Shown here piece after piece: positions 12,801 to 24,353 of a stretch of 24,353 nucleotides of DNA. This DNA is from a virus, in the IMG/VR virus record IMGVR_UViG_3300022169_000030, positions 1-24,353 of that record, one strand, 5' to 3'. Under the pieces are notes generated by a model. The model searched no databases and was not told where the DNA came from. It saw only the letters and a program-made list of their open reading frames with translations. How positions within the stretch are numbered: position 1 is the first letter of the stretch; the number at the start of each line of letters is the position of its first letter. The translations under genes were made by a program, and so were the position numbers.

Positions 12801-14043
12801 TACTGGAGCAGGAGCAACATTTAGCTCATTCAATACTAATGACTGGGACGAGACAATTAATTGGACACCTCTACTTACAGCTAATATATTAACTAATGAT
12901 TTTACTCTATTAGACAACTTTGGTCAACCTGTTGATGTTTTTACTTTAACAATGACTAGCGTAAAGAATAGCGTACTACCAAACGGTGTGGATGTTTCTC
13001 AGTATTTTGAGCTCTTTGAAACACCAACCCCAAACTTCTACAACATTAGAGTAACTGAAGATTATTGGGATAACATATACTTTAATAGCATAGCTACTCT
13101 AAGAAACTTTACTTTTAGTTTTGTAAGCGTAGTTGATACAGTGTCTACTCCATTTTTAGAGATTGGTAACCCTAATAACATAGCTCCAAGTATACTACCT
13201 TTTCCAGGTAGCGGGGAAGTATGTGGTGGACTTATATACGCTAGTAGAAACCAGGAAAGCATTACAACTAAGTGGGGTATAAATGGAGCAGGTAATGACG
13301 AACTTAGAAATAGAGATTTAAACTGGGAAATCACCTCTCAAACAGATGAGGGTGGGAATCCAGTAGATCCAAATAACCCGTTTACTATAGATGCTGACGC
13401 TCTTGGTTTTGGTACTCTTTTAGGTACTCCGGATTTTGTTAGTCAAGTAGTTCTTCAAAACTTACCAGCAAATCAAAGTAAACCAGCTGGAAGATATTCT
13501 GTAACACTACAACTTACAGATCCAGGTGCGTCAGTGGAATGCGTTGTAAATATTGAACAAAGAGTGACTTCGTCTGTTCCTACTTGGAGAGGGTTAACTG
13601 TTTACGGTGAAAACCTTGCGGCTTCTCAATTTGATCCTGAGTATTTTAATTGTGAGGGTATTTACTTTAAAGTAGACGCAAACAATTTTGGCGCAAGAGT
13701 CGGGTGGTATTATTATATTTACAGTTTAGGAAATTCACCTGACTCAAACATTTCAAATCCAAGCACATATCAAACCGCCGCTTTAGCCAGCACTGTAAGT
13801 CAAGGTTCAATAGGTATATTCAAAAACGCATCAAGTTCTTTAACTGGAACTACTTTAGGAGCAGGAGATTGGCTTTTTAGCAATGCAACAGCGGAGTTTG
13901 GAACAGGTTCTGCTCAAGAGTTTTTTAAAGACGCTGTTGAAAATAGAGTTTTTCCATCTCAACCAAACTATGATCCTGCGGATGTTGATGCGGGTGTCAC
14001 TCAAAACGCACCTTTTACACCAGATTCAGTAGAATTTATATAA
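9823..14043 (+). CDS. Tail stabilisation (muzzle-type) protein, N-terminal part, with adhesin-like beta insertions
   Basis: This 1,406-residue protein begins with a segment typical of crAss-like stabilisation/tail proteins: KNKLNQDLDARLLPNGEYRN followed by ALNIQVSKSEGANVGSLENV. Further family-like segments are EGLLFWTDNRNQPRKIDTTK (about residue 145) and LAIYETEPVESELDIFWESS (about 965). Two similar beta modules of about 60 residues lie at 536-595 and 883-942. From about 1,030 the chain is rich in Asn, Thr and Pro with a cadherin/Ig-like look (LPNGVDVSQYFELFETPTPN), and it could be surface exposed or receptor binding. The expected C-terminal part of the family (YFNSF onwards) is absent and is encoded by the next gene in the same frame. 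The protein would form the short tail tube and mouth. Family resemblance is strong over the N-terminus; the insertion domains are tentative. Confidence 0.8.
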   Translation: MAKVTNTFIKNKLNQDLDARLLPNGEYRNALNIQVSKSEGANVGSLENVLGNIKVKDFEVLTGVDDLICIGFLTDEFNNTIYLFLTDNPKSTDLNPEAYKPTANNFIFSYDTLLDDADNTTLLVEGAWLNFSKNFPITGVNILEGLLFWTDNRNQPRKIDTTKANPSRLANPTHYISEDQVSVAKYNPYDPIQTWKKSTDPDSGTWAVPYESTMKDVSSKFMPNGGSADVVGAYLGGNNNIPISTVKGDIQFTGSNAYDTNSTISYINPSTGELVSTGLLVSNYNTSVDPPEIITTATILDPMPALSSGTELIFNANPYYEYLFAGDPDYLEDRFVRFSYRYKFEDGEYSIFAPFTQIAFIPKQDGYFLFTNKEGIPEKDDQSNTYRSTIVSFMENKVDDIELRVPLPTGYTGADISEGLKITKIDILYKESDALAVKVVDTINVEDMVFVEDYFSYQYESKKPFKTLPSKDLIRVYDVTPVKALSQEIISNRLVYANFQDKHTPPDTINYSVNVGAKKPFNLQNGTAIADFQSDTTTIQISGKTGTILVGSIITNLLSGGNPVAVTVVDTLFSEITVSGPVTITQGQTLIFEAAADDTQYTSTIESPNHSVKQNRNYQVGIVLSDRFGRQSSVVISNDSTLTIEGGDEFGTSTIYSPYQTTAVEQNEWPGDSLKLLFNDPIGPANPNTTTGWPGIYNGDITSLSYNPLGWYSYKIVVKQTEQEYYNVYLPGIMAAYPESTTLEIGNTSHAVLINDNINKVPRDLTEVGPDQKQFRSSVRLFGRVENTSTEILYTGTRPTNIGLSNDQYFPGRESDTVSTISTLNDLFNYDPNDPPRPDYFPQLYTFLSNPLIARISTDDKIGQIATTNFDIASAIVDADVSNSTNVVLKNVTGIPVSDMVVFGGGLPADSTVGSYNPAIFTLILNDAVTLKADDVLAFAQGFPTPNQGTIIEPGIQHLAIYETEPVESELDIFWESSTAGLVNDLNYLILNTTGAGATFSSFNTNDWDETINWTPLLTANILTNDFTLLDNFGQPVDVFTLTMTSVKNSVLPNGVDVSQYFELFETPTPNFYNIRVTEDYWDNIYFNSIATLRNFTFSFVSVVDTVSTPFLEIGNPNNIAPSILPFPGSGEVCGGLIYASRNQESITTKWGINGAGNDELRNRDLNWEITSQTDEGGNPVDPNNPFTIDADALGFGTLLGTPDFVSQVVLQNLPANQSKPAGRYSVTLQLTDPGASVECVVNIEQRVTSSVPTWRGLTVYGENLAASQFDPEYFNCEGIYFKVDANNFGARVGWYYYIYSLGNSPDSNISNPSTYQTAALASTVSQGSIGIFKNASSSLTGTTLGAGDWLFSNATAEFGTGSAQEFFKDAVENRVFPSQPNYDPADVDAGVTQNAPFTPDSVEFI

Positions 14044-14082
14044 GATAAGGAGCTTATGAATAAAACATGTAATAATTAATTT
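14044..14082 (+). promoter_or_regulatory. 39-base spacer with AAGGAG, mini reading frame and second in-frame TAA
   Basis: The spacer separates two genes that share a frame. It contains aaggag (14047-14052), the only clear Shine-Dalgarno-like string I noted next to a start codon here. Three bases later lies ATG (14056), which opens a seven-codon frame (MNKTCNN) ending at TAA 14077-14079. Three bases later comes the ATG of the next gene. Re-initiation or coupling is possible. The spacing from aaggag to ATG 14083 is too long for direct use. Confidence 0.5.
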
Positions 14083-15588
14083 ATGGGAGCAGTAGTAGAA
14101 GTTAAATATTTTAACAGCTTTGTGTTAAAGAAAACCATCCAAGATGAGAAACAACCTATTTGGAACGGTTCATTTGGCATACCCCAAGAAAACGGAGGTT
14201 ACCCAGTGGTTTCAGATACATCAGAGGCTAACAACTGGGCTATTGAAGAAGCTAGAATACGAGGCGGATATAACAACACTAACGTTGATTATGGAGTTAA
14301 AGCGTACCTGGTTGAAGAGGAACCAAATTCGTCTATAAGATTTAATTCTCTAATATGGTCTGGAATATTTAATTCTAGAACAGGTATAAATAACACAAAC
14401 GTATTTTCAACAGGAACTAGCATAACTAAAAGTGCAGATCCAGCAGATGGTTCTATTCAAAAGCTTTACGCAGAAGATACCAACTTGGTAATATTTCAAG
14501 AAAGAAAAGTTAGTAGAGCTTTAATTGACAAAGATGCAATTTATTCAGCAGAAGGAACTAGTAGTATAACATCGACTAATTTAGTTGTAGGAGTTATACA
14601 ACCTTACGCTGGTAGGTTTGGAATAAGTAGAAACCCTGAGAGCTTTGCTGTTTATGGTTTTAACAAGTTCTTTTCAGATAAAAACAATAATGTAATACTT
14701 AGGTTAGGTCAAAACGGGATAACTGAAATATCAGCTTCTGGTATGAAAGATTATTTTAGAGATCAACTAAACGCTATAGATAGCACTGGAGGAGTAGAAG
14801 GTTATGTCAGAGGTGGTTATGATATTTACAATAATAAGTACATAGTATCAACTCAACAAAATATTGCAAACCCAACGTATAACACCTTGTCTTGGAGTGA
14901 TTCTATTGGCGGTTGGACAAGCTTTTTTAGCTATCGTCCAGATCAATTGTTTAGTATAAGAAATAATTTTTATACAGTTCAAGACGGAAGTTTATATAGA
15001 CATCACGATAACACCGTTAACAGAGGGCAGTTTTATGGAGTAGACACACCTAGTCTTATAACTTTTATATTTAATCCAAGTCCCACGCTTTCAAAAACTT
15101 TTAAAACAGTTTCTTACGAAGGTAGTAACGGCTGGAAAGTTATTTCATTTGCGTCAGATGGTACGGGTCAAGACTTTGACTTACCAAACAATAATTGGGT
15201 AGTTAATCAAGACGAGACTACAATACCAGGAAATTTAGATTTATACTCACCAACATCGGTACATAGTTATCTAGAAGGTGAATATGTTATTAACCCAGCT
15301 AATGGCCAACCAGTAATTAGACAAGATTATTTAGCTACATTTGGAACTATAAGACCTGCTTTGAATAAAGAGTACGCTGGTTTTAATAGAAAAGAAAATA
15401 GCTACGCTTCTAACCTAGTTAACTACAGCACTCCAGAGGATGGTGAGGTTGTATATGGCGAACAAATTGCCGGCATTAAAGGTTATTATTCAACAGTAAC
15501 TTTTTTAACTGATGCCGTTACAAACGTTGGAGCTGAGAAACAATTATTTGCAGTTAGCTCTGAGTTTACTCAAAACAATGGTTATTAA
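14083..15588 (+). CDS. Tail stabilisation protein, C-terminal part
   Basis: This 501-residue protein reads like the back half of crAss-like stabilisation proteins. VKYFNSFVLKKTIQDEKQ near the start corresponds to the family's YFN-F segment. IRFNSLIWSGIFNSRTGINN (about residue 85), DGSIQKLYAEDTNLVIFQER (about 125), KDAIYSAEGTSSITSTNLVV and RFGISRNPESFAVYGFNKFF follow in the expected order. The rest is beta-rich and ends in a Tyr/Asn/Gly-rich tail. It probably assembles with the preceding 1,406-residue product in the short tail. The start is set by the two stop codons upstream in the same frame. The stop overlaps the next ATG by one base (TAATG). Whether relatives encode one protein or two decides if this is a recent split. 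Confidence 0.8.
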   Translation: MGAVVEVKYFNSFVLKKTIQDEKQPIWNGSFGIPQENGGYPVVSDTSEANNWAIEEARIRGGYNNTNVDYGVKAYLVEEEPNSSIRFNSLIWSGIFNSRTGINNTNVFSTGTSITKSADPADGSIQKLYAEDTNLVIFQERKVSRALIDKDAIYSAEGTSSITSTNLVVGVIQPYAGRFGISRNPESFAVYGFNKFFSDKNNNVILRLGQNGITEISASGMKDYFRDQLNAIDSTGGVEGYVRGGYDIYNNKYIVSTQQNIANPTYNTLSWSDSIGGWTSFFSYRPDQLFSIRNNFYTVQDGSLYRHHDNTVNRGQFYGVDTPSLITFIFNPSPTLSKTFKTVSYEGSNGWKVISFASDGTGQDFDLPNNNWVVNQDETTIPGNLDLYSPTSVHSYLEGEYVINPANGQPVIRQDYLATFGTIRPALNKEYAGFNRKENSYASNLVNYSTPEDGEVVYGEQIAGIKGYYSTVTFLTDAVTNVGAEKQLFAVSSEFTQNNGY

Positions 15589-16049
15589 TGAATAAGCTTA
15601 GTAACTTTACTAGAAACCTAGAAGCACTGCAAGAAGTTTTAATAGCTAACAACGACAAAGAATTTATACACGGTGATGGAAAAACTCTTGTAGACAACGA
15701 GGACTTTCCTATAAAGCATAACTTTTCAGATCAACTGTATATGAGAGAAATGAAAATGAAAGCTGGAACATTTGTTGTAAGCGCTATGCATCATACAGAT
15801 CATTTTTGGTTTTTAATGACTGGTAGAATACAAGTGACGACGGATGGTGAAACAGTAGAGCATATAGCACCTTGTTTTGAAAAGTCTATAAAAGGCGCTA
15901 AAAGACTTATAACATGTACAGAAGACTGTGTGTTTATAAACGTACACAAAAACCCATCTAACGATCAAAACTTAGATAAAATACAAAAAAACTTATATTC
16001 TTTTACTATAGAAGAGTATGTAAATAAAGAAAAAGTATGTCAGGAATAA
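15588..16049 (+). CDS. Small cupin-like protein
   Basis: This 153-residue protein has a single RmlC-like cupin (jelly-roll) pattern. AGTFVVSAMHHTDHFWFLMT (residues 59-78), with histidines 68, 69 and 72, is followed by the strand GRIQVTTDGETVEHIAP and then a GAKRLITCTEDCVFINVH strand pair. The histidines could bind a metal, but the classic E-(x)6-G second half of cupin motif 1 is not complete, so a purely structural jelly roll is possible. Its first base overlaps the stop of the preceding tail gene, and its last 13 bases overlap the next gene, so it is translated within the tail operon. Possible roles are a minor tail component or assembly factor, or an enzyme acting on a host sugar or small molecule. 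The fold assignment is moderately sure; the role is unknown. Confidence 0.65.
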   Translation: MNKLSNFTRNLEALQEVLIANNDKEFIHGDGKTLVDNEDFPIKHNFSDQLYMREMKMKAGTFVVSAMHHTDHFWFLMTGRIQVTTDGETVEHIAPCFEKSIKGAKRLITCTEDCVFINVHKNPSNDQNLDKIQKNLYSFTIEEYVNKEKVCQE

Positions 16050-16720
16050 TAACGGCAGGCGTTATAGGAGGAGTTGCTTCTATAGCAGGCGGGATTTTTG
16101 GATCATCAGCCGCTAAAAAAGAAAAGCGAAGGGCTGAAGCTGAAAAGCGACGGTTGACTAAAAAGCTAGAAACACTAGAGGCTAATAGACAAGAGATAAT
16201 AAACCCTTATGCAGACGTAACAAGTCTTAGTAGCATGATAAGTAATCCATTTGCTAACTTGTCAGTTGCAACAGGAGCGGCTGAAATGAAGATTGAAGAG
16301 GCTGACATATCATTAGCAAACACATTAGATACAATTAGAGCAACCGGTGGAGGTGCTGGTGGTGCTACGGCGTTAGCTCAAGCTGCTTTACAGTCTAAGA
16401 AAGGTGTTGCAGCTAGTATTGAAATGCAAGAAAAAAGTAACGAAGACAAAAGAGCTCAAGGAGAAGCAAATGTTCAACAGCAAAAAGTTGCTGAGGAGCG
16501 TAGAATGCAACAATCTGAAGTTGCTGGTAAACAATTTGTATATGGTGAAACTGAGAACAGAGAGGTTGCTCAATTAAACAGAGTAGCTGGTCAATTAGGA
16601 ATGGCAGAACAAGTTAGAGCACAAGCTCAAGCGGATCAAACAGGAGCAATAACCGGTATGTTCGGTAGCTTAGCTAGTATAGGAGGTTCTATGGCTGAAG
16701 GCGGAGCGTTTAGTAAATAA
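16037..16720 (+). CDS. Probable internal virion / DNA-ejection protein
   Basis: This 227-residue protein opens with a small-residue hydrophobic segment (IITAGVIGGVASIAGGIFGS, residues 4-23) that could insert in a membrane. A basic helix follows (KKEKRRAEAEKRRLTKKLE). The middle has a Gly/Ala run (TGGGAGGATALAQAALQS, about 104-121) and then long Glu/Gln-rich helices. A second small-residue segment lies near the C-terminus (GAITGMFGSLASIGGSMAEG). This layout is typical of small internal core or ejection proteins of podoviruses such as those of T7 and P22, which leave the virion first and help form a channel in the host envelope. The start lies inside the cupin-like gene with a 13-base overlap. 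The role is inferred from composition and context. Confidence 0.72.
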   Translation: MSGIITAGVIGGVASIAGGIFGSSAAKKEKRRAEAEKRRLTKKLETLEANRQEIINPYADVTSLSSMISNPFANLSVATGAAEMKIEEADISLANTLDTIRATGGGAGGATALAQAALQSKKGVAASIEMQEKSNEDKRAQGEANVQQQKVAEERRMQQSEVAGKQFVYGETENREVAQLNRVAGQLGMAEQVRAQAQADQTGAITGMFGSLASIGGSMAEGGAFSK

Positions 16721-16732
16721 AGACAATAACTT

Positions 16733-17833
16733 ATGGAAAACAATAACATACTTCAAAATCTTTTTATACAACAATTTAATCAAAGCGATTCTATTGCGTA
16801 TAACAAAGGTTTTACAGCTAACACCAGTGATTACAATTTTCAATTACTAGACAACGCTTATAGAAATACAGGTAAGATATATGCTAGAATAAAAATAGCT
16901 ATAGAGAATAATGACTGTCAATCAGAGAATTGTGCTTTAGAACTTACTGAGTTGAAACACTTAACGGATGCGCCTCAAATATCACTAGATTTTTTAGCTT
17001 CAATCATGGCTGAGCTTTCAGTGACAGAAGACCCAACGTTTGATCCTAACAATGATTTTAAATATACTGTTGCTAATAGTATACTAAACGGTAGACCTGG
17101 GTTTTCTAAAACAGATGGCTACAATGTTCACTTAGATTTATTACCAGGTGGAGCACAGCAAATAGTTTTTATAGGTCCTTTGTTTGAAGAGCCTTTTGTT
17201 ATAAACAATACGGCTTTAAATGCTTTAAATCTAGCGCAAACATCATTAGTAGGATCTACGCCAACAATACCAAGTGACATGTTGTCTTTATTAACAGCTG
17301 TAGGTATTTTTGCTGCAGATGCTGTTATGGAAAATGGACAATTAGGAGCAGGAGCTAAAATTCAAGAAGAGTTTGTTTTAAAGAATCCAGACGGATCTTT
17401 TGACTATGCGATAATTGATATCGGTGGAGGTAAAGGTAGAAACATTTTAAAATACGATTTAGATAAAATAGAAAAGAAAACAGCTCCTTTTATAAATTCT
17501 GAAATAGCCGGTTTAATGAGCTCTGAGCAAGACGTAATTGCTGCTTGGAACGTTTATATATCTAAAAGTACAAGTGCTGAAGAGGATGCTCAGATGGTCC
17601 AAGACGCTAACGCTGGAGAATCTAGTTGGTCTTACATTGATAATTTACCTTTAGCTCAAGATAAAAAAGTTTTATTTGAAAAGAAATATAAAGAATACTT
17701 TATGAATAATTATCTAAAACAATTTATTACAAATCAATTTCCTACAGTTCCAGAAGATGCAGCTGTATTTGATTTAGCTGAAGCTAAAAAAGCTAAAGCT
17801 CAAAAGTTTATTGACGATAACAACTTAAATTAA
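16733..17833 (+). CDS. Conserved virion-associated protein of unknown function
   Basis: This is a 366-residue protein that I cannot assign. It starts with an Asn/Gln-rich helix (NNILQNLFIQQFNQSD). A cysteine pair sits near residues 62 and 67 (NDCQSENCALEL), and an acidic C-terminal helical tail ends AKKAKAQKFIDDNNLN. The centre (about 110-240) contains GYNVHLDLLPGGAQQIVFIG and FDYAIIDIGGGKGRNILKYD. The latter superficially recalls a nucleotide-binding or methyltransferase glycine motif, but the surrounding sequence does not support that. It sits between a putative ejection protein and the giant polyvalent protein, each about a dozen bases or fewer away, so a role as internal virion or ejected protein or as chaperone of the giant protein is plausible. 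The only evidence for that is position. Confidence 0.65.
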   Translation: MENNNILQNLFIQQFNQSDSIAYNKGFTANTSDYNFQLLDNAYRNTGKIYARIKIAIENNDCQSENCALELTELKHLTDAPQISLDFLASIMAELSVTEDPTFDPNNDFKYTVANSILNGRPGFSKTDGYNVHLDLLPGGAQQIVFIGPLFEEPFVINNTALNALNLAQTSLVGSTPTIPSDMLSLLTAVGIFAADAVMENGQLGAGAKIQEEFVLKNPDGSFDYAIIDIGGGKGRNILKYDLDKIEKKTAPFINSEIAGLMSSEQDVIAAWNVYISKSTSAEEDAQMVQDANAGESSWSYIDNLPLAQDKKVLFEKKYKEYFMNNYLKQFITNQFPTVPEDAAVFDLAEAKKAKAQKFIDDNNLN

Positions 17834-17838
17834 ATTAA

Positions 17839-20800
17839 ATGACATTACTAGAATACGTACAATCACTTCAAGATCAAGGCGCAACAGACATACCTGATAA
17901 AGTTCAAGAATGGAAAAAGAAAAACCAACCCAAAGTTGAAAAAGAGGTAATTAAAACACCTGTTAAACAAGCAAAGACAGAAGTTGTTGTGGAGAAGGAT
18001 GCGACTGCAGCAACAACCCCGGTAGCATCCGAGAGTTTAAGTTCTGGAAGTGGCGAGCCTACTTTTACTTCAATGTACGACGAAGACGCAACAGCTAGTC
18101 AAGGACTTGATATAATAAATCAAAGAGCTTTAAGATTAAAAGCTGAAAAAGACTTTGATGCGGACGTGGGCGGCGTTAAAACTAAAGCTATATTAAGTAA
18201 ACTACCCTTAGGTTCTAAACAAAGAGCTGACTACTACATAAGTAGGGGTTTCGAAGCAGACGATACTATAAGTAAAAGTTATTACGATAGAGCTTCAGGC
18301 TACGTAGCTCCTAATAGTTTTTTAATAGACGAGGGTGAAGCTGAAGAGGAGTTTAGTCTTTCAGCTCCTAAAACAGAAATACCTTCAGAGTCTCAAGAGT
18401 TAAAAGGTTCAGATCAAATAATTGATTTTAAAGGTCCTAGCGACCCTTTAGGTTTGGACGAGCCTAAAAAACAAGTTCCAGACACTTTTTTTGAAGATTT
18501 AACTAAAGAGTTTGAGTCTGAAAAAGAACGCGGAACTGGTACAACGGAAGGTTTTATAGATGGTTTTATATTAGAAAACGATTTAGATTTAGAATATGAA
18601 AATTTATATTTTAATAAAGAAAAATCAACTAAGTTTGTAGATGATTTTTACGGTGGCGCTGACGCTTTAAAAGAGTTCGGAGTTAACGCCGTTGATTTTG
18701 AGGGTTTTTTAAACAGAAATGGCTATGCTGATGATTACCTAAATAATCTAAAAGAAGGAGAGTACGAAGATACTTCTATATATGGTAAAGACAATAAGTT
18801 AGCCGAAGAAAGGCATTTAAGAAAGTATTTAAACTTATATGTAAACCGTCAAGACTATAAAGCAAATCAACTTAATAAGTTAGAGAAGATAAAAAAAGAT
18901 CCTAAATTTAAAACTTCTACTTTTGGTAACGCTAGGAGCAGTGTCTTAAACGCTATTAGTAAGGTTGAAGAATCAAATATATATCTTACTACTGTAGATC
19001 AACAAAAACAAAAGGATTATTTAAAATCTAAATTTACACTATCTACCGCGAAGGACAAAGAGTATGCTAAAGCTAAAATAGATTACGCAAAAGAATTAGA
19101 TCAAAGAGGGGATTGGTACGCGGCAGCTGCTAATACGGGATCTTTTTTAGCTGAAGGTGGTGAAGGTTTTTTAACAGGAATGCGAGATCTTGTAAACTTT
19201 GGTTTAGATATAACTGGATTTGACTTAGCTGTAGATAAAGATAGAAATTATCAAGCTGAAGAGCAGTTAGCTAAAGACTCTTCTTATTTCACTAGTATAA
19301 CGGATGCTAAAACAATAACTAAAGATGGTATTGAATACGCTAAAGACTCTAAGGGTAATATATACAATGTATCGGCTGGATATAATGTTAGTGGCGTAAT
19401 AACAGGTTTGCAGTTAGAAAGTTTAGACAAAGAGATAGAATCTAAAGGCGTAAAAAAGAACCACACTTCTTTAAGAGGTTATTTGACGGTTGGAGGTAAT
19501 GTTACTGGAAATGTTTTAAGTCAGGTTGTTGGTCAAAAAGGATTTGGAGCTGTAACAAAAGCTGCTAAACTAAGAACACTAGCCTCAGTTAACGGTTTTA
19601 AAAGCGTAAAAGATTATAAGAACATGGTTAATCTTTCTAAAGCTATAGGAGGAAAAGCAAAACCATCTTTTAGAATTCCAGTTAAAAAATCAACAGTAGA
19701 TGCAATGCTTTTTCAAGGGTCTTATGGAGGTGCTATAGGTTATAACAATACTTTAGCTCAAGCAAAATCCGCTGGATTCAATGATGCCGACGCTGAAGCT
19801 TTAGCTTATGACGCCGGTCAATACATGGCTGTTTGGTATGCGGCTACAGGACCTGTTAGTGATAGAACAACCTGGTTAGATAAAGTTGGAGGAAATTTAG
19901 CTGTTAAAAAAATTATTTCCAATGCTTTATCTAAAACTAGAAAAGGTAATGTAAAGAACTTTTCACAGTCTTTAAAAAATCAATTAACAAATTTAAGTTA
20001 CAAGCTAAAGTCTAAAGGATATGATTTTGCTAAAGAAGGTGGTAAAGAGACTTTACAGGAAAACCTACAGCAATCAGGTGAATTTCTTTGGATAAATCCT
20101 AAATTAAACACTAAAGCCAAGGCTAACTTCTTACAAGATACATACAGTAATGACGAAATTATTTCTACTTCTGTTTTGTCTTTTGCTACAGGAGGTTTGC
20201 TATCTCAGATTAAAGTACCTAGTTTTAAGCCTAACGCAAGTGCGCAAATAGCCAACTACACTTATATAGCTAAAAACTCAGCAAAAGCAGAACTAGAACT
20301 TGACAGGTTAGTGAATAGTGGGTTTGCAACTCAAGAGGAGGCTGACCAAATAATGTTTAACTCTAAAGCTATATTAAATCAATCGCCTAAGATACCTAAA
20401 TGGTTAAGTGGTGACTACGTGTTAAACGTTGCTCAATTAATGCAGCAAAAACAAGATTTAGAAAATCAAAAAAAATCTACAGCTCCTTCTTTTCATGGTC
20501 CTTTAGATGATGATATAGAAAACTTAGATTTAGAAATAGACGCGCTTATAAGACAATCAGCTGACGAAAAAAGAACGCAACTACAGAAGGGTGTTAGTAC
20601 TTTTGTTGATGCAGTAGCTAAAGCTAGCGATAAAGAGGTTGATATACAGAATTTTGAAACCACTTCTGAGGCCAACGCTTATAGGCAAGAGTTAGAGGAT
20701 AAAGGAGCTAATGTTTACCAATCTCAAGGCTATGGAGATTTTGTTTTAGACGACAAGACTGGAGATATAACAATAATAATAGACGATCAAGTTAACACAG

Positions 20801-23800
20801 AGGATAATGTAGTAACCACTGAGGTACATGAAGGAGGTCATCTTTTAGTTTCAGCAACTGTGAAAAAAGATCCTAAAGCAGCGGCTAAACTTGGTAGTAG
20901 TCTTTTACAAGAGTTAGCTGATAATTCTAATATAGAAATAAAAAACGACAAAGTAGCAAAGCGAATAGCTCAATATATAGCCGATGGCGACAGTACAGCG
21001 GTGGTGATGGAGGAAGTAATGATGTTTACAAGCGAAGCGTTAATTGATGGCGACATAGTTTTTAACGAAACAGCTTCTACCAAAATAGGTGATCTTATTA
21101 GAAGAACTCTACAAAACGTTTTTGGGATTAAAGTTAAATTTAAAGACGGTAAATCTGTTATTAATTTTTTAAGAGATTACAACAAAACAATTGAATCTGG
21201 GAAAGCCTCAAAAGGATTAGTTAGAACAGCTATTGAAGGATCAAAAGTCACTATAAAAGACTCTGATGTTGATGCTGCTAAGAAAATAGGTAGAACAGAG
21301 GTTGTTGTAAACGAAGAAACGGGTGTTGCAGAAGACGTTGAAGTAAAACCTGTAGTTGAAGAAGAATCATCTAGAGCTAGTAAAAGAGACACAGGTGTTG
21401 AAGCTTCTGCTAAAGTACAAGAAATATACGATGCACAAGGTGAAGCTGGAGCTTTTGATATTATAGATCAATTCAAGCCTATAGTAAATAGAATAGTAGA
21501 AAAAAGAAGAGACGCGCCTAATTTTGATCGTCAGTTGTTAACTGATGAAATTGAAACAGGTAAGCGTGGAATATTCGATTTAATTAGAGAATACAAACCT
21601 GAATCAGGCGTGCCATTAGCCGCTTATATAAATAAGTTTTTACCAGCTAGAGCAATTGAAGCCTCTAAAAGAGTTTTAGGTGAAGAGTTTACTAGTGATG
21701 TTACAGAAGCTAAAGGCGTTATGGCAGAAGAAGTGACAACTGAAGTTGCTGCTAAACCTGTTACTAGAAAAATAAAGCCAAGCTCGTTTATTTCTAACGA
21801 AGCTGTCACTAAAATTAAAGAGCAAGTACAGGAGAAGATTAAAGGCATCGATCCTAAAAATCTAACGTTTAAAAAACTTGGTGACTTAGCTCCTGAAATT
21901 ATTGCACAAGAACTTGGTATACCAGTTAAAAAACTAACTAGTCCAACGGCTAACCTATCAAAAGGTGATGCTACAGCTATTCAGCAGTTTGTCAATAAGA
22001 ACGCAGATAAATTATTAAAGATATTACCTGAAGGGGCAGTAGTAGAAGCTGCAACAGACAAGCTCTTAGGTACGTCTACTGGCGTGCCAAAAGGATTACT
22101 TAATGCTTTTTATACTAAACAAGCTAGATTAGGTAAAGGCGCTGGACTTGCTCCGTTTAAATTAAACAAAGGAATTAGCAAAGCTGATTTCTTAGAAACG
22201 TTTGGTATTGTTGAAGGTAAAAAAGCTGAAGGATTTGACGCTAGATCACCACAAGCTCAAGCTTTAAAAGGTATTGCAAGTTTATACGGTAAGTTAGTTA
22301 CAAACGAAATTGTAAGATCTGACACAGATTTAAGTTTAGAAGATAAGCAAGATGTTGCAGCTGGAAAGAACAAAGCTATGGCTAGTAAGCGAACACAGAA
22401 GCTGAACTGGAAAGAAACAGATGAAGCTATAGTGGCTTCTTTTAAAATAGGTGATAGAACTTATAAAACAACTTTAGAAGAAACCGCTTTCATGGAATTT
22501 GACGAAGGTCAAACCTACCAGGACATAGAGGATGTAGCTAAAGATTTAGATATACTTGAAGACGCAGAAGGAAACCCGATAGAAAGTTCTGAGAATTTTT
22601 ACCATTTAGAGTTCGGAGATACTGAGCTTGGAAAAGGTATAACAGGTAAAGGTAACGCTTTTGAAGTGTTTACCACTACTATGAACGGTGTTGTAGATTA
22701 CTTAAAAGCTAATCCAAGAATAGAGGGCGTTGTTTTTACAGCTAAAGAACCTAGTAGAATTAGATTATATAAAACTCTAAGCCAAGTATTAGCTGGTAAG
22801 CTTAATGGCAGCTCTGGTTTTAAAAACGACACTTTTATTGTGTCAACTAAACCTGCAACGGTTAGCAAGCCAAAGTCTATGGCTAGTAAGCGTGTAACCA
22901 AGGAGCAAAAAAGTAAAGGCATAAAAGATCAAATCCATCAAGATTCTGGTAAAAGTTTAGTATCTAAAACCGTAGATTTATTAACAAGAAAAGATGGTGT
23001 AGCCGCGGGGTTTGGAAACGCATCACTACCATTTATAATAACTCCATTTAATCTATCATCTGGTGGTAATTCTGCGAGACGCGGCTATGTAGCCATAACA
23101 GACGCTAGTTTAACTAGAGACAAAGATCGGGTTAAGACTGAAAAAGCATTAAAAGAAGGTGAAGTTTTTGACTTAAGAAAAGTAAGAAGTAAAGTAACTG
23201 ATTTAGGTTTATCTAATTTAGGACCTCAATTTACTACTGACCAATTAAAAGAAATGAGTCTAGTTACTAAAGGCGGTAGTAGATCTTCTATAGCTAGAAA
23301 TAAAGAGAAAGTTAAAGCTTTAATTAACGGTAAAAATTCTTTTTACGACGGTTTTTATAGAGCTTATGATGCAAATCCTGAGGCTAATTTACCTGGATTA
23401 AAGCAAATAATATATCCAGCAGATCAATCTTCAAACGCTACATTAGGTAGAAAAATAGCTACAGCAGTTAATGATTCTAATAAAGGAGATAAAGTACCAT
23501 ACTTAGAGCATTGGTTTCCATATGGACAATGGGCTTTAACTACTATTTCTACTTTTGATATGCCTCAAGCCTCTAGAAATGCCTGGAAAAAATGGGCTAA
23601 TGAACATTATTATCAAGAGAATATAAGTTCACAAACTCAAACAGCGGTAGACAAAACATACACGGTAAAATTAGAAGATGGTACAGGAGTTTCTTGGAAG
23701 TCTAAAGATCAAAACCATCCGCTTCTTGAAAAGCAATTGAGCAAGTTTAGAGAAACAGGAGATGTTAAGTATTTAGATAAAGCTAGTAGACTTTCAGATA

Positions 23801-24353
23801 TAAGAAAATACCCTGGAGTACACACTGAGGTTAATCCATTTGTCCACGGTAGATATAACGTCACTGACGCAGCTAAGTATGGAATAAAAGTTTCTCCAAG
23901 CTTGGAATCTAATTTAGAGGTGCAACACGAAGCTAGTGCTATTATACATGAGGTTATAGTTGGTAATATAACAGAGGTTGAGGCTCAAGAAAGAATAGAA
24001 GCTTTTATTTCTATAGCTCCTGGAAAGTCAATGGCTTCAAAACGTGACAGCGATTTAATTCCTGACGCTATAAAGTACGACAGACCTATAACTGTACAGA
24101 CGGCTATAAACGCTTTAGAAAAAACTGATAAAGCTTTAGAACTTGCTAGAAAATTAGACCAACCTGTTAAGAAGATTAGAGTATTTGATTTTGATGATAC
24201 ATTGGCTAGAACTAAAAGCAATGTGTTATACACAATGCCTGATGGAACTACTGGAGCTATTGATGCTGCTACATTTGCTAAAGAAGCAGGTAACATGGAA
24301 GCAGAAGGAGCTCAATGGGATTTCTCTGAGTTTAGTAAAGTAATGCAAGGAAG
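17839..24353 (+). CDS. Giant polyvalent (multidomain) virion protein, 3' end beyond window
   Basis: The frame stays open to the window end, giving at least 2,171 residues. The ATG lies five bases after the previous stop, with no Shine-Dalgarno. Order of parts: charged, proline-containing N-terminus (1-250); helical part (250-420); Gly/Ala-rich part with FATGGLLSQ (425-800); metallopeptidase-like part with HEGGH at 997-1001 and a likely third ligand in MEEVMM (1057-1062); possible sigma-region-2-like helices (1192-1285; GVPLAAYINKFLPARAIEAS); helical part (1300-1510); GNAT-like part (1535-1672; GKGNAFEVF, EPSRIRLYKTL); unknown part (1700-2050); start of a HAD-like domain (VFDFDDTLA, 2115-2123). 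RASKR (1179-1183) and MASKR (1514, 1681, 2065) lie between the modules. It is probably packaged and injected, with the parts acting on the host. The domain calls range from strong (HAD, zincin motif) to weak (sigma, GNAT). Confidence 0.85.
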   Translation, partial: MTLLEYVQSLQDQGATDIPDKVQEWKKKNQPKVEKEVIKTPVKQAKTEVVVEKDATAATTPVASESLSSGSGEPTFTSMYDEDATASQGLDIINQRALRLKAEKDFDADVGGVKTKAILSKLPLGSKQRADYYISRGFEADDTISKSYYDRASGYVAPNSFLIDEGEAEEEFSLSAPKTEIPSESQELKGSDQIIDFKGPSDPLGLDEPKKQVPDTFFEDLTKEFESEKERGTGTTEGFIDGFILENDLDLEYENLYFNKEKSTKFVDDFYGGADALKEFGVNAVDFEGFLNRNGYADDYLNNLKEGEYEDTSIYGKDNKLAEERHLRKYLNLYVNRQDYKANQLNKLEKIKKDPKFKTSTFGNARSSVLNAISKVEESNIYLTTVDQQKQKDYLKSKFTLSTAKDKEYAKAKIDYAKELDQRGDWYAAAANTGSFLAEGGEGFLTGMRDLVNFGLDITGFDLAVDKDRNYQAEEQLAKDSSYFTSITDAKTITKDGIEYAKDSKGNIYNVSAGYNVSGVITGLQLESLDKEIESKGVKKNHTSLRGYLTVGGNVTGNVLSQVVGQKGFGAVTKAAKLRTLASVNGFKSVKDYKNMVNLSKAIGGKAKPSFRIPVKKSTVDAMLFQGSYGGAIGYNNTLAQAKSAGFNDADAEALAYDAGQYMAVWYAATGPVSDRTTWLDKVGGNLAVKKIISNALSKTRKGNVKNFSQSLKNQLTNLSYKLKSKGYDFAKEGGKETLQENLQQSGEFLWINPKLNTKAKANFLQDTYSNDEIISTSVLSFATGGLLSQIKVPSFKPNASAQIANYTYIAKNSAKAELELDRLVNSGFATQEEADQIMFNSKAILNQSPKIPKWLSGDYVLNVAQLMQQKQDLENQKKSTAPSFHGPLDDDIENLDLEIDALIRQSADEKRTQLQKGVSTFVDAVAKASDKEVDIQNFETTSEANAYRQELEDKGANVYQSQGYGDFVLDDKTGDITIIIDDQVNTEDNVVTTEVHEGGHLLVSATVKKDPKAAAKLGSSLLQELADNSNIEIKNDKVAKRIAQYIADGDSTAVVMEEVMMFTSEALIDGDIVFNETASTKIGDLIRRTLQNVFGIKVKFKDGKSVINFLRDYNKTIESGKASKGLVRTAIEGSKVTIKDSDVDAAKKIGRTEVVVNEETGVAEDVEVKPVVEEESSRASKRDTGVEASAKVQEIYDAQGEAGAFDIIDQFKPIVNRIVEKRRDAPNFDRQLLTDEIETGKRGIFDLIREYKPESGVPLAAYINKFLPARAIEASKRVLGEEFTSDVTEAKGVMAEEVTTEVAAKPVTRKIKPSSFISNEAVTKIKEQVQEKIKGIDPKNLTFKKLGDLAPEIIAQELGIPVKKLTSPTANLSKGDATAIQQFVNKNADKLLKILPEGAVVEAATDKLLGTSTGVPKGLLNAFYTKQARLGKGAGLAPFKLNKGISKADFLETFGIVEGKKAEGFDARSPQAQALKGIASLYGKLVTNEIVRSDTDLSLEDKQDVAAGKNKAMASKRTQKLNWKETDEAIVASFKIGDRTYKTTLEETAFMEFDEGQTYQDIEDVAKDLDILEDAEGNPIESSENFYHLEFGDTELGKGITGKGNAFEVFTTTMNGVVDYLKANPRIEGVVFTAKEPSRIRLYKTLSQVLAGKLNGSSGFKNDTFIVSTKPATVSKPKSMASKRVTKEQKSKGIKDQIHQDSGKSLVSKTVDLLTRKDGVAAGFGNASLPFIITPFNLSSGGNSARRGYVAITDASLTRDKDRVKTEKALKEGEVFDLRKVRSKVTDLGLSNLGPQFTTDQLKEMSLVTKGGSRSSIARNKEKVKALINGKNSFYDGFYRAYDANPEANLPGLKQIIYPADQSSNATLGRKIATAVNDSNKGDKVPYLEHWFPYGQWALTTISTFDMPQASRNAWKKWANEHYYQENISSQTQTAVDKTYTVKLEDGTGVSWKSKDQNHPLLEKQLSKFRETGDVKYLDKASRLSDIRKYPGVHTEVNPFVHGRYNVTDAAKYGIKVSPSLESNLEVQHEASAIIHEVIVGNITEVEAQERIEAFISIAPGKSMASKRDSDLIPDAIKYDRPITVQTAINALEKTDKALELARKLDQPVKKIRVFDFDDTLARTKSNVLYTMPDGTTGAIDAATFAKEAGNMEAEGAQWDFSEFSKVMQG

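Follow-up and report, generated by a model that had tools for sequence, protein, structure and literature searches.

A repeated boundary motif covaries with an embedded metallopeptidase and suggests a self-processing virion polyprotein in uncultured phages

The IMG/VR virus record IMGVR_UViG_3300022169_000030 was analysed over positions 1 to 24,353 (24,353 nucleotides, hereafter the window), in which a + strand run of virion genes, with a terminase, a portal and one virion structural protein recognised by PHROGs, ends in the open frame of a giant polyvalent protein (17839..24351, + strand). This frame contributes 2171 codons without a stop and is still open at the window end; relatives of the protein are mostly 2300-3400 amino acids long. 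A short motif, ASKR, recurs at the borders between its modules, and among relatives the residue that closes the motif covaries with one position of a metallopeptidase module embedded in the same protein. The giant gene stands with virion genes in one window and on the same strand, as polyvalent proteins do (Iyer et al. 2017). Unlike modules, namely an HExxH peptidase, a sigma-2-like and a HAD-like module, share its single frame, again as in polyvalent proteins; these assignments come from motifs and fold likeness and not from curated family matches.

The metallopeptidase module (residues 897-1146; 20527..21276; this and all features below lie on the + strand) is zincin-like. Motif and alignment predict a zinc site at HEGGH (residues 997-1001; 20827..20841), with Glu1059 (21013..21015) as the predicted third ligand. 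In a 30-member alignment the H, E, H and the distal Glu are all invariant (30/30 for Glu1059), of which only the distal Glu is informative because the members were chosen for HExxH. With its predicted ligands the module shows the HExxH and conserved distal Glu that characterise the metallopeptidase (MPTase) domain of polyvalent proteins. No curated family reached threshold in the 30 members: the best Pfam match, Arc_PepC (3 members, 0.0005), is not a zincin, and weak zincin matches were to SprT-like (3 members, best 0.012) and Peptidase_M78 (2 members, best 0.0087). The best PDB match, a zinc endoprotease, is weak (E=0.74). Asp989 (20803..20805), eight residues before HExxH, is the position that covaries in column tests with the fifth residue of the motif. 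In five related loci (L023, L032, L082, L085 and L086) the peptidase region reads YAAxAPxEE[IL]FH, where Glu replaces the first His of HExxH, and four others (L229, L244, L293 and L301) match a shorter EExFH pattern; the motifs of EExFH-type giants end mostly in G, A, V or S.

Four copies of the boundary motif lie within the one open frame, at exactly the residues and nucleotides given by an earlier, sequence-only reading of this DNA: RASKR at residues 1179-1183 (21373..21387) and MASKR at residues 1514-1518 (22378..22392), 1681-1685 (22879..22893) and 2065-2069 (24031..24045). Their codons are, in order, AGAGCTAGTAAAAGA, ATGGCTAGTAAGCGA, ATGGCTAGTAAGCGT and ATGGCTTCAAAACGT. The first copy follows the HExxH domain and is degenerate in relatives (KASKR, KASQR, KQSQR, KESKK or KPSKK); the second precedes an exchangeable, DUF6934-like module (residues 1519-1680; 22393..22878); the third precedes an exchangeable, unnamed module (residues 1686-2064; 22894..24030); and the fourth stands 51 residues ahead of the motif FDFDDT (residue 2116; position 24184) of a HAD phosphatase-like module that is cut by the window end (24046..24351) and whose Pfam matches are sub-threshold. 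The boundary placement claimed for these four copies is thus borne out, although the GNAT label that had been attached to the module at 1519-1680 is unconfirmed: its sub-threshold match is to DUF6934, and family, Foldseek and VIA-align comparisons did not establish a GNAT identity.

ASKR is the commonest 4-mer of the window protein, with 5 copies against 0.048 expected from composition, and MASKR occurs 3 times against 0.0005 expected; in shuffles of the protein, any 5-mer reached three or more copies in 12 of 2000. Among 16 giants of the same dialect, ASKR occurs 48 times in 44,078 residues (incidental copies included) and not once in the 38,785 residues of the other open reading frames of at least 100 residues at the same loci. 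The fifth ASKR of the window protein, EASKR at residues 1274-1278 (21658..21672), had been overlooked. It lies in a confident helix (pLDDT, the predicted local distance difference test, about 86 in the AlphaFold2 model) and is replaced by EASQR in L005, L006, L008 and L009; given this variation and its place within a folded module that resembles sigma region 2, it is regarded as incidental and outside the motif system. In contrast, the four boundary copies all have pLDDT below 50, as does the site before the HAD domain in L002. This is mild support for a placement in linkers, and only mild because 444 of the 1022 modelled residues of the window protein, these copies among them, also fall below 50.

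Relatives write the motif in several dialects, namely MASKR, MASKL, ASKG/ASRG, KFSKT, KFSKS, KFSE and SQAKD. The boundaries within one protein tend to share a dialect, and the dialect differs between proteins. The window and L014 share the module at 22393..22878 at 62% identity over 180 residues, yet it is framed by MASKR on both sides in the window and by FSLN and KFSVS in L014, the remaining boundaries of which are likewise of KFS type. Another relative of this module, in L061, is placed after the HAD domain and framed by that protein's own KFSET, and a relative of the unnamed module (1686-2064) follows KFSKR in L003.

This concordance was measured by asking whether the HAD-end motif of a protein matches other places in that sequence better than the motifs of other proteins match them. 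It does so in the 71 giants in which a HAD-end site could be defined, where the mean z was 0.95 (permutation standard deviation 0.12; reached in 0/10000 permutations). After thinning, the corresponding counts were 0/10000 for 15 proteins of less than 65% identity and 80/10000 for 8 proteins of less than 55%. Since relatives share motifs, a protein's own motif is in many cases only mid-ranked among the 71, and windows nine or more residues off the site gave no consistent signal. The result repeats in 81 new proteins (3 of 84 removed), with z 0.89 and 0/5000, although one of 11 control windows reached 215/5000 in the most thinned set. The copies within one protein therefore seem to answer to one reader.

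Homology between relatives often breaks at the motif. Alignments of the window protein to L004, L005, L007, L009, L029 and L058 (6 of the 77 relatives listed) stop exactly at residue 1518, the Arg that closes the second copy, and several further alignments stop a few residues away; those of the six resume between residues 1907 and 2062. Between the flanking MASKR copies, L004-L009 carry different cassettes, including at the place of the unnamed module. Over 82 non-redundant giants (three giants below 1500 residues and nine near-duplicates removed), 186 alignment ends fall within 12 residues of MASK[RL] against 50 expected (3.7-fold), and 400 within 12 residues of [MK]FSK against 102 expected (3.9-fold), each reached in 0/2000 random shifts. 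Among seven control words, ATK was 2.1-fold enriched (1/2000), DSK (1.4) and K[LIV]SK (1.5) were within chance, and four stood at 0.67-0.88. In raw ranks KFS is 13th of 1502, and KFSK, MASK and ASKR are 38th, 52nd and 102nd of 1591, with words of the HAD core above the motif. Raw enrichment is not unique to the motif, because conserved HAD words share one breakpoint; we therefore counted, without choosing a motif, the 4-mers that a single protein repeats at two or more of its breakpoints. Here ASKR (15 proteins), MASK (13) and KASK (9) lead 513 words, followed by SMAS and KFSK.

A further line of evidence links the motif to the peptidase. We denote by X the residue after SK (the fifth of the motif) and by -8 the position eight residues before HExxH, which is Asp989 in the window. 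Across the peptidase, HAD and C-terminal alignments, Asp at -8 was the best of 2560 column tests against a basic X (p 4.9e-9); the position had been spotted by eye before these scans, which are accordingly not blind, though all columns were ranked. Taken on the C-terminal domain tree, the 12 independent contrasts between -8 and X comprise 10 concordant, 0 discordant and 2 tied cases, which places -8 at the top of 4578 column tests on contrasts; the next column, a Leu at window residue 1068, reaches 9. Seven of the contrast pairs are separated by a tree distance of 0.16 or less, so that the HAD-end motif has changed with a peptidase at least 1000 residues away while the neighbouring domain has hardly changed. 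Under a sign-flip null of the maximum, applied to eight regions, P is 0.0017 for the peptidase and at least 0.15 for the C-terminal, HAD, N-terminal and flanking regions and for the upstream gene. In these broader tests X was taken from the HAD-end site if a motif is present there and otherwise from other boundary copies, and was set by hand for the window, L069, L083 and L091. A strict set confined to HAD-end sites (37 proteins) has Asp at -8 with Arg or Lys in 18/18 cases and a residue other than Asp with a non-basic X in 17/19; its contrasts are concordant in 9/10 with 1 tied, and P is 0.0029 for the peptidase region and at least 0.078 for the others. Val at -8 goes with Thr or Ser in 7/7 strict cases and in 3/4 new ones.

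A prediction fixed beforehand was then compared with new proteins, and 30/36 fit it (p=0.0035): X is basic in 5/6 with Asp and non-basic in 25/30 without. The sample began with 236 loci, of which 216 have the anchor, 84 are non-redundant and new, and 36 are testable; the removals were 20 loci that lack the anchor, 132 near-duplicates, 43 with no SK motif, one lacking HExxH and four of EExFH type. The new loci had passed a 90% identity filter against the first set, and some are still related to it. The exceptions are L143, L131, L149, L180, L292 and L308; L131 and L149 have Asp at -6 instead of -8, a remark made after the fact.

Based on these comparisons, we propose that the giant protein is a self-processing virion polyprotein whose own metallopeptidase reads the motif, a reading to which we assign a probability of about two in three. 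The sequence-only reading had suggested a proteolytic processing site without naming a protease; processing remains the best explanation of the motif, and the evidence points to the metallopeptidase module of the giant itself. The dibasic KR on which that suggestion was built is, however, not supported as the essential feature, since other clades have SKL, SKG, SKT, SE or SQAKD at comparable boundaries. In the proposed mechanism, the polyprotein would be carried in, or ejected from, the virion, and its HExxH module would recognise [MK][AF]SK-X in the inter-module links and cut there. The products would be an N-terminal part that retains the peptidase, a C-terminal domain and, between them, the sigma-like, GNAT-like, unknown and HAD parts. 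The specificity for X would be set in good part by residue -8, with Asp leading to Arg or Lys and Val mostly to Thr or Ser, and X would sit in a pocket influenced by that residue; an acidic residue is a chemically reasonable partner for Arg or Lys. Since zincins usually select strongly at P1', the cut would most likely fall just before X and not after KR. If the peptidase reads the motif and residue -8 sets X, then peptidase and sites should change together, and an incoming cassette would need either to bring the local dialect with it or to evolve it. With less assurance, though still inclined to accept it, we extend this to a fuller picture, in which uncultured, probably Bacteroidota phages have a polyprotein of modular effectors whose protease sites form a code: one zincin would read one dialect, its specificity would come largely from one residue beside the zinc site, cassette exchange would need a matching dialect, and the cargo would include a sigma-like module delivered with the DNA.

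Several observations weigh against the self-processing mechanism. The sequence-only reading had named models that place ASKR inside folded domains as a refutation, and the model of L002 goes part of the way there: it puts the HAD-end copy in a helix (pLDDT about 72-86), although the four window copies fall in stretches below 50. No SK motif is present at the HAD end in 43 of the 84 new relatives, and 10 of the 82 giants lack HExxH (five have EExFH and five have neither, one of those being truncated). The rule for -8 has exceptions in 2/37 proteins of the strict set and 6/36 out of sample, and the Leu column at window residue 1068 equals -8 in the strict test. On the peptidase's own tree only 4/8 contrasts are informative, with 4 concordant and 4 ties (p=0.06), and whole-peptidase similarity predicts dialect similarity weakly once other domains are taken into account (partial r 0.065). 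Two further correspondences were tried and abandoned: Arg at -8 with Leu or Ile, seen in two close relatives (L021 and L022), was not repeated in three new cases (Thr, Thr and Ser), and EExFH giants, predicted to have Gly, Ala or Val at X, did so in 1/4, the rest having Ser.

The low partial correlation with whole-peptidase similarity speaks for a motif cut by another protease, of the host or of the phage, with the embedded metallopeptidase being itself an effector; the persistence of dialects in giants with EExFH in place of HExxH is of the same tenor. We consider this unlikely, as the best covarying column of all regions tested lies in the peptidase, beside the zinc site, and held out of sample, and the gene directly upstream of the giant carries no signal. 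A little less probable still is a docking or anchoring peptide, bound uncut by the metallopeptidase module or by a virion partner and holding the modules for ordered ejection. Such a peptide would show the same concerted change and covariation, and the N4 virion RNA polymerase, which is packaged uncut with its HExxH domain still in place (PMC5512222), sets a precedent that also counts against self-processing; the covarying residue nevertheless adjoins a predicted zinc site with an invariant distal Glu, where substrate specificity would be expected to reside.

Cassettes do switch at the motif, as they would if it were a recombination scar or hot spot without a role in the protein. This is very improbable: the copies within a protein agree in 100/224 codons (0.446) against 0.509 expected from codon usage, so that copies share no codons beyond chance and the constraint acts at the protein level, as the sequence-only reading had also argued from codon differences. 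A scar would moreover not follow a peptidase residue, nor would one expect the 62% identical module to stand between different dialects in the window and L014. An origin by chance, or through a preference of linkers in general for A, S, K and R, could draw on the enrichment of unrelated words at breakpoints (ATK and the HAD-core words), but we give it hardly any weight beside dialect concordance with null controls in two samples and the complete lack of ASKR in the other open reading frames (at least 100 residues) of the same loci. Least credible of all are internal translation starts, since the ATG that opens three window copies and could begin separate module proteins has no counterpart in the comparable copies that start with K or R, or in the KFSK dialect, which has no Met.

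Self-processing of such proteins is not a new idea. Autoproteolytic release of other domains by the MPTase domains of polyvalent proteins has already been predicted and likened to RNA-virus polyproteins (Iyer et al. 2017; PMC5512222). The window family resembles the proteins of that account in being giant and multidomain, in its place beside virion genes, in HExxH with a distal Glu and in its shuffling of unlike modules. It differs in its repeated site-like motif, its clade dialects and their covariation with the peptidase; the main text of the account contains no instance of 'linker', 'spacer' or 'short motif' (PMC5512222). DdrB and DarA of phage P1, polyvalent head proteins, are reported there to be proteolytically processed (PMC5512222), as proposed here, though the description mentions no repeated site motif. 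The N4 virion RNA polymerase is likewise a giant ejected protein with an HExxH domain, but in the parts of the sources that describe it, it is packaged unprocessed and no punctuation motif is given (PMC5512222, PMC12633501). In phage SPN3US, a short AXE motif marks 14 sites in nine virion proteins for a prohead protease; that protease is a separate protein, cuts after Glu and removes N-terminal propeptides at 13 of the 14 sites (PMC10052503), whereas in the window family the candidate protease is inside its substrate. The window motif contains no Glu and so does not end in one as AXE-type sites do, although L061 has KFSE.

RNA-virus polyproteins combine an embedded protease with repeated sites that change with it. 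The present family differs from these in being from DNA phages, with an HExxH zincin and exchangeable effector modules in a giant protein. The literature searched, in which subscription journals are thinly covered, yielded no mention of a repeated motif at such boundaries, of dialects of it or of their covariation with a residue of the peptidase. Processing by MPTase domains is therefore already in print, at least as a prediction (PMC5512222), and the site motif and covariation appear new. If the proposed mechanism is correct, a general guess about peptidase-released domains would become a rule that names its residues and sites and can be tested; anonymous giant phage proteins could be divided into their effectors with its help. 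It would also explain why processing survives the exchange of cassettes, and would provide a DNA-phage parallel to RNA-virus polyproteins in which protease specificity is naturally varied.

Among the cargo, the helical module at residues 1185-1282 (21391..21684) resembles region 2 of sigma-70. Its AlphaFold2 pLDDT blocks are 86-94, and 48 of the 50 VIA-align matches listed align there and come from sigma-factor entries, with Z up to 7.5; the fold match alone is moderate because, according to VIA-align, Z 7.5 is common for helical bundles. The module has no Pfam match, and the 1022-residue window model as a whole has no Foldseek match at E 0.001 or better. The sigma-like module may be a virion-delivered sigma factor. 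In or beside the HAD module of L009, L033, L035, L036, L037, L041 and L042, the stretch from VHMVVATTPLETA to RNKARTERSLPDFVV past the HAD motif presumably resembles a zeta-toxin-like kinase. In L025, L029, L032, L058 and others, the HAD domain is longer by an insert of about 46 residues that follows the MP of VxMP.

The giant-protein family is common in viral contigs. One query of IMG/VR viral contigs yielded 13 loci, a scan with the alignment of the constant C-terminal domain confirmed at least 473 relatives, and three later scans found 458 to 531 each, the best 80 being retained per scan. Among 50,697 phage records, the giant protein had no match at E 0.01 and the constant C-terminal domain of one relative none at E 0.001; the DNA of one relative had no isolate match. 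Only two genome contigs carry relatives, one from a Cryomorphaceae metagenome-assembled genome (MAG) and one from an Aliivibrio MAG; the latter, L103, has a relative of the C-terminal domain and is perhaps a misbinned phage contig. The host is probably in the Bacteroidota, and probably among the flavobacteria, because relatives of the capsid protein are found in phages of Flavobacterium, Cellulophaga and Maribacter, as well as in one uncultured phage. In MW202828, elemoE and Panino, phages found through capsid-protein similarity, the giants that correspond by position and size have no comparable repeated motif. In phi38:1 and an elemo phage, giants that are counterparts of the window giant by position alone are annotated as structural proteins.

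Two small features accompany these genes. Among the virion genes of the window, positions 15588-16049 encode a small protein that by eye looks cupin-like (HHTDHFWFLMTGRIQVTTDGE). Directly downstream of the giant gene in L002, positions 13972-16795 hold a run of small open reading frames, three of which have a near-identical N-terminus, MSSPFQxxF, like a common tag on different proteins.

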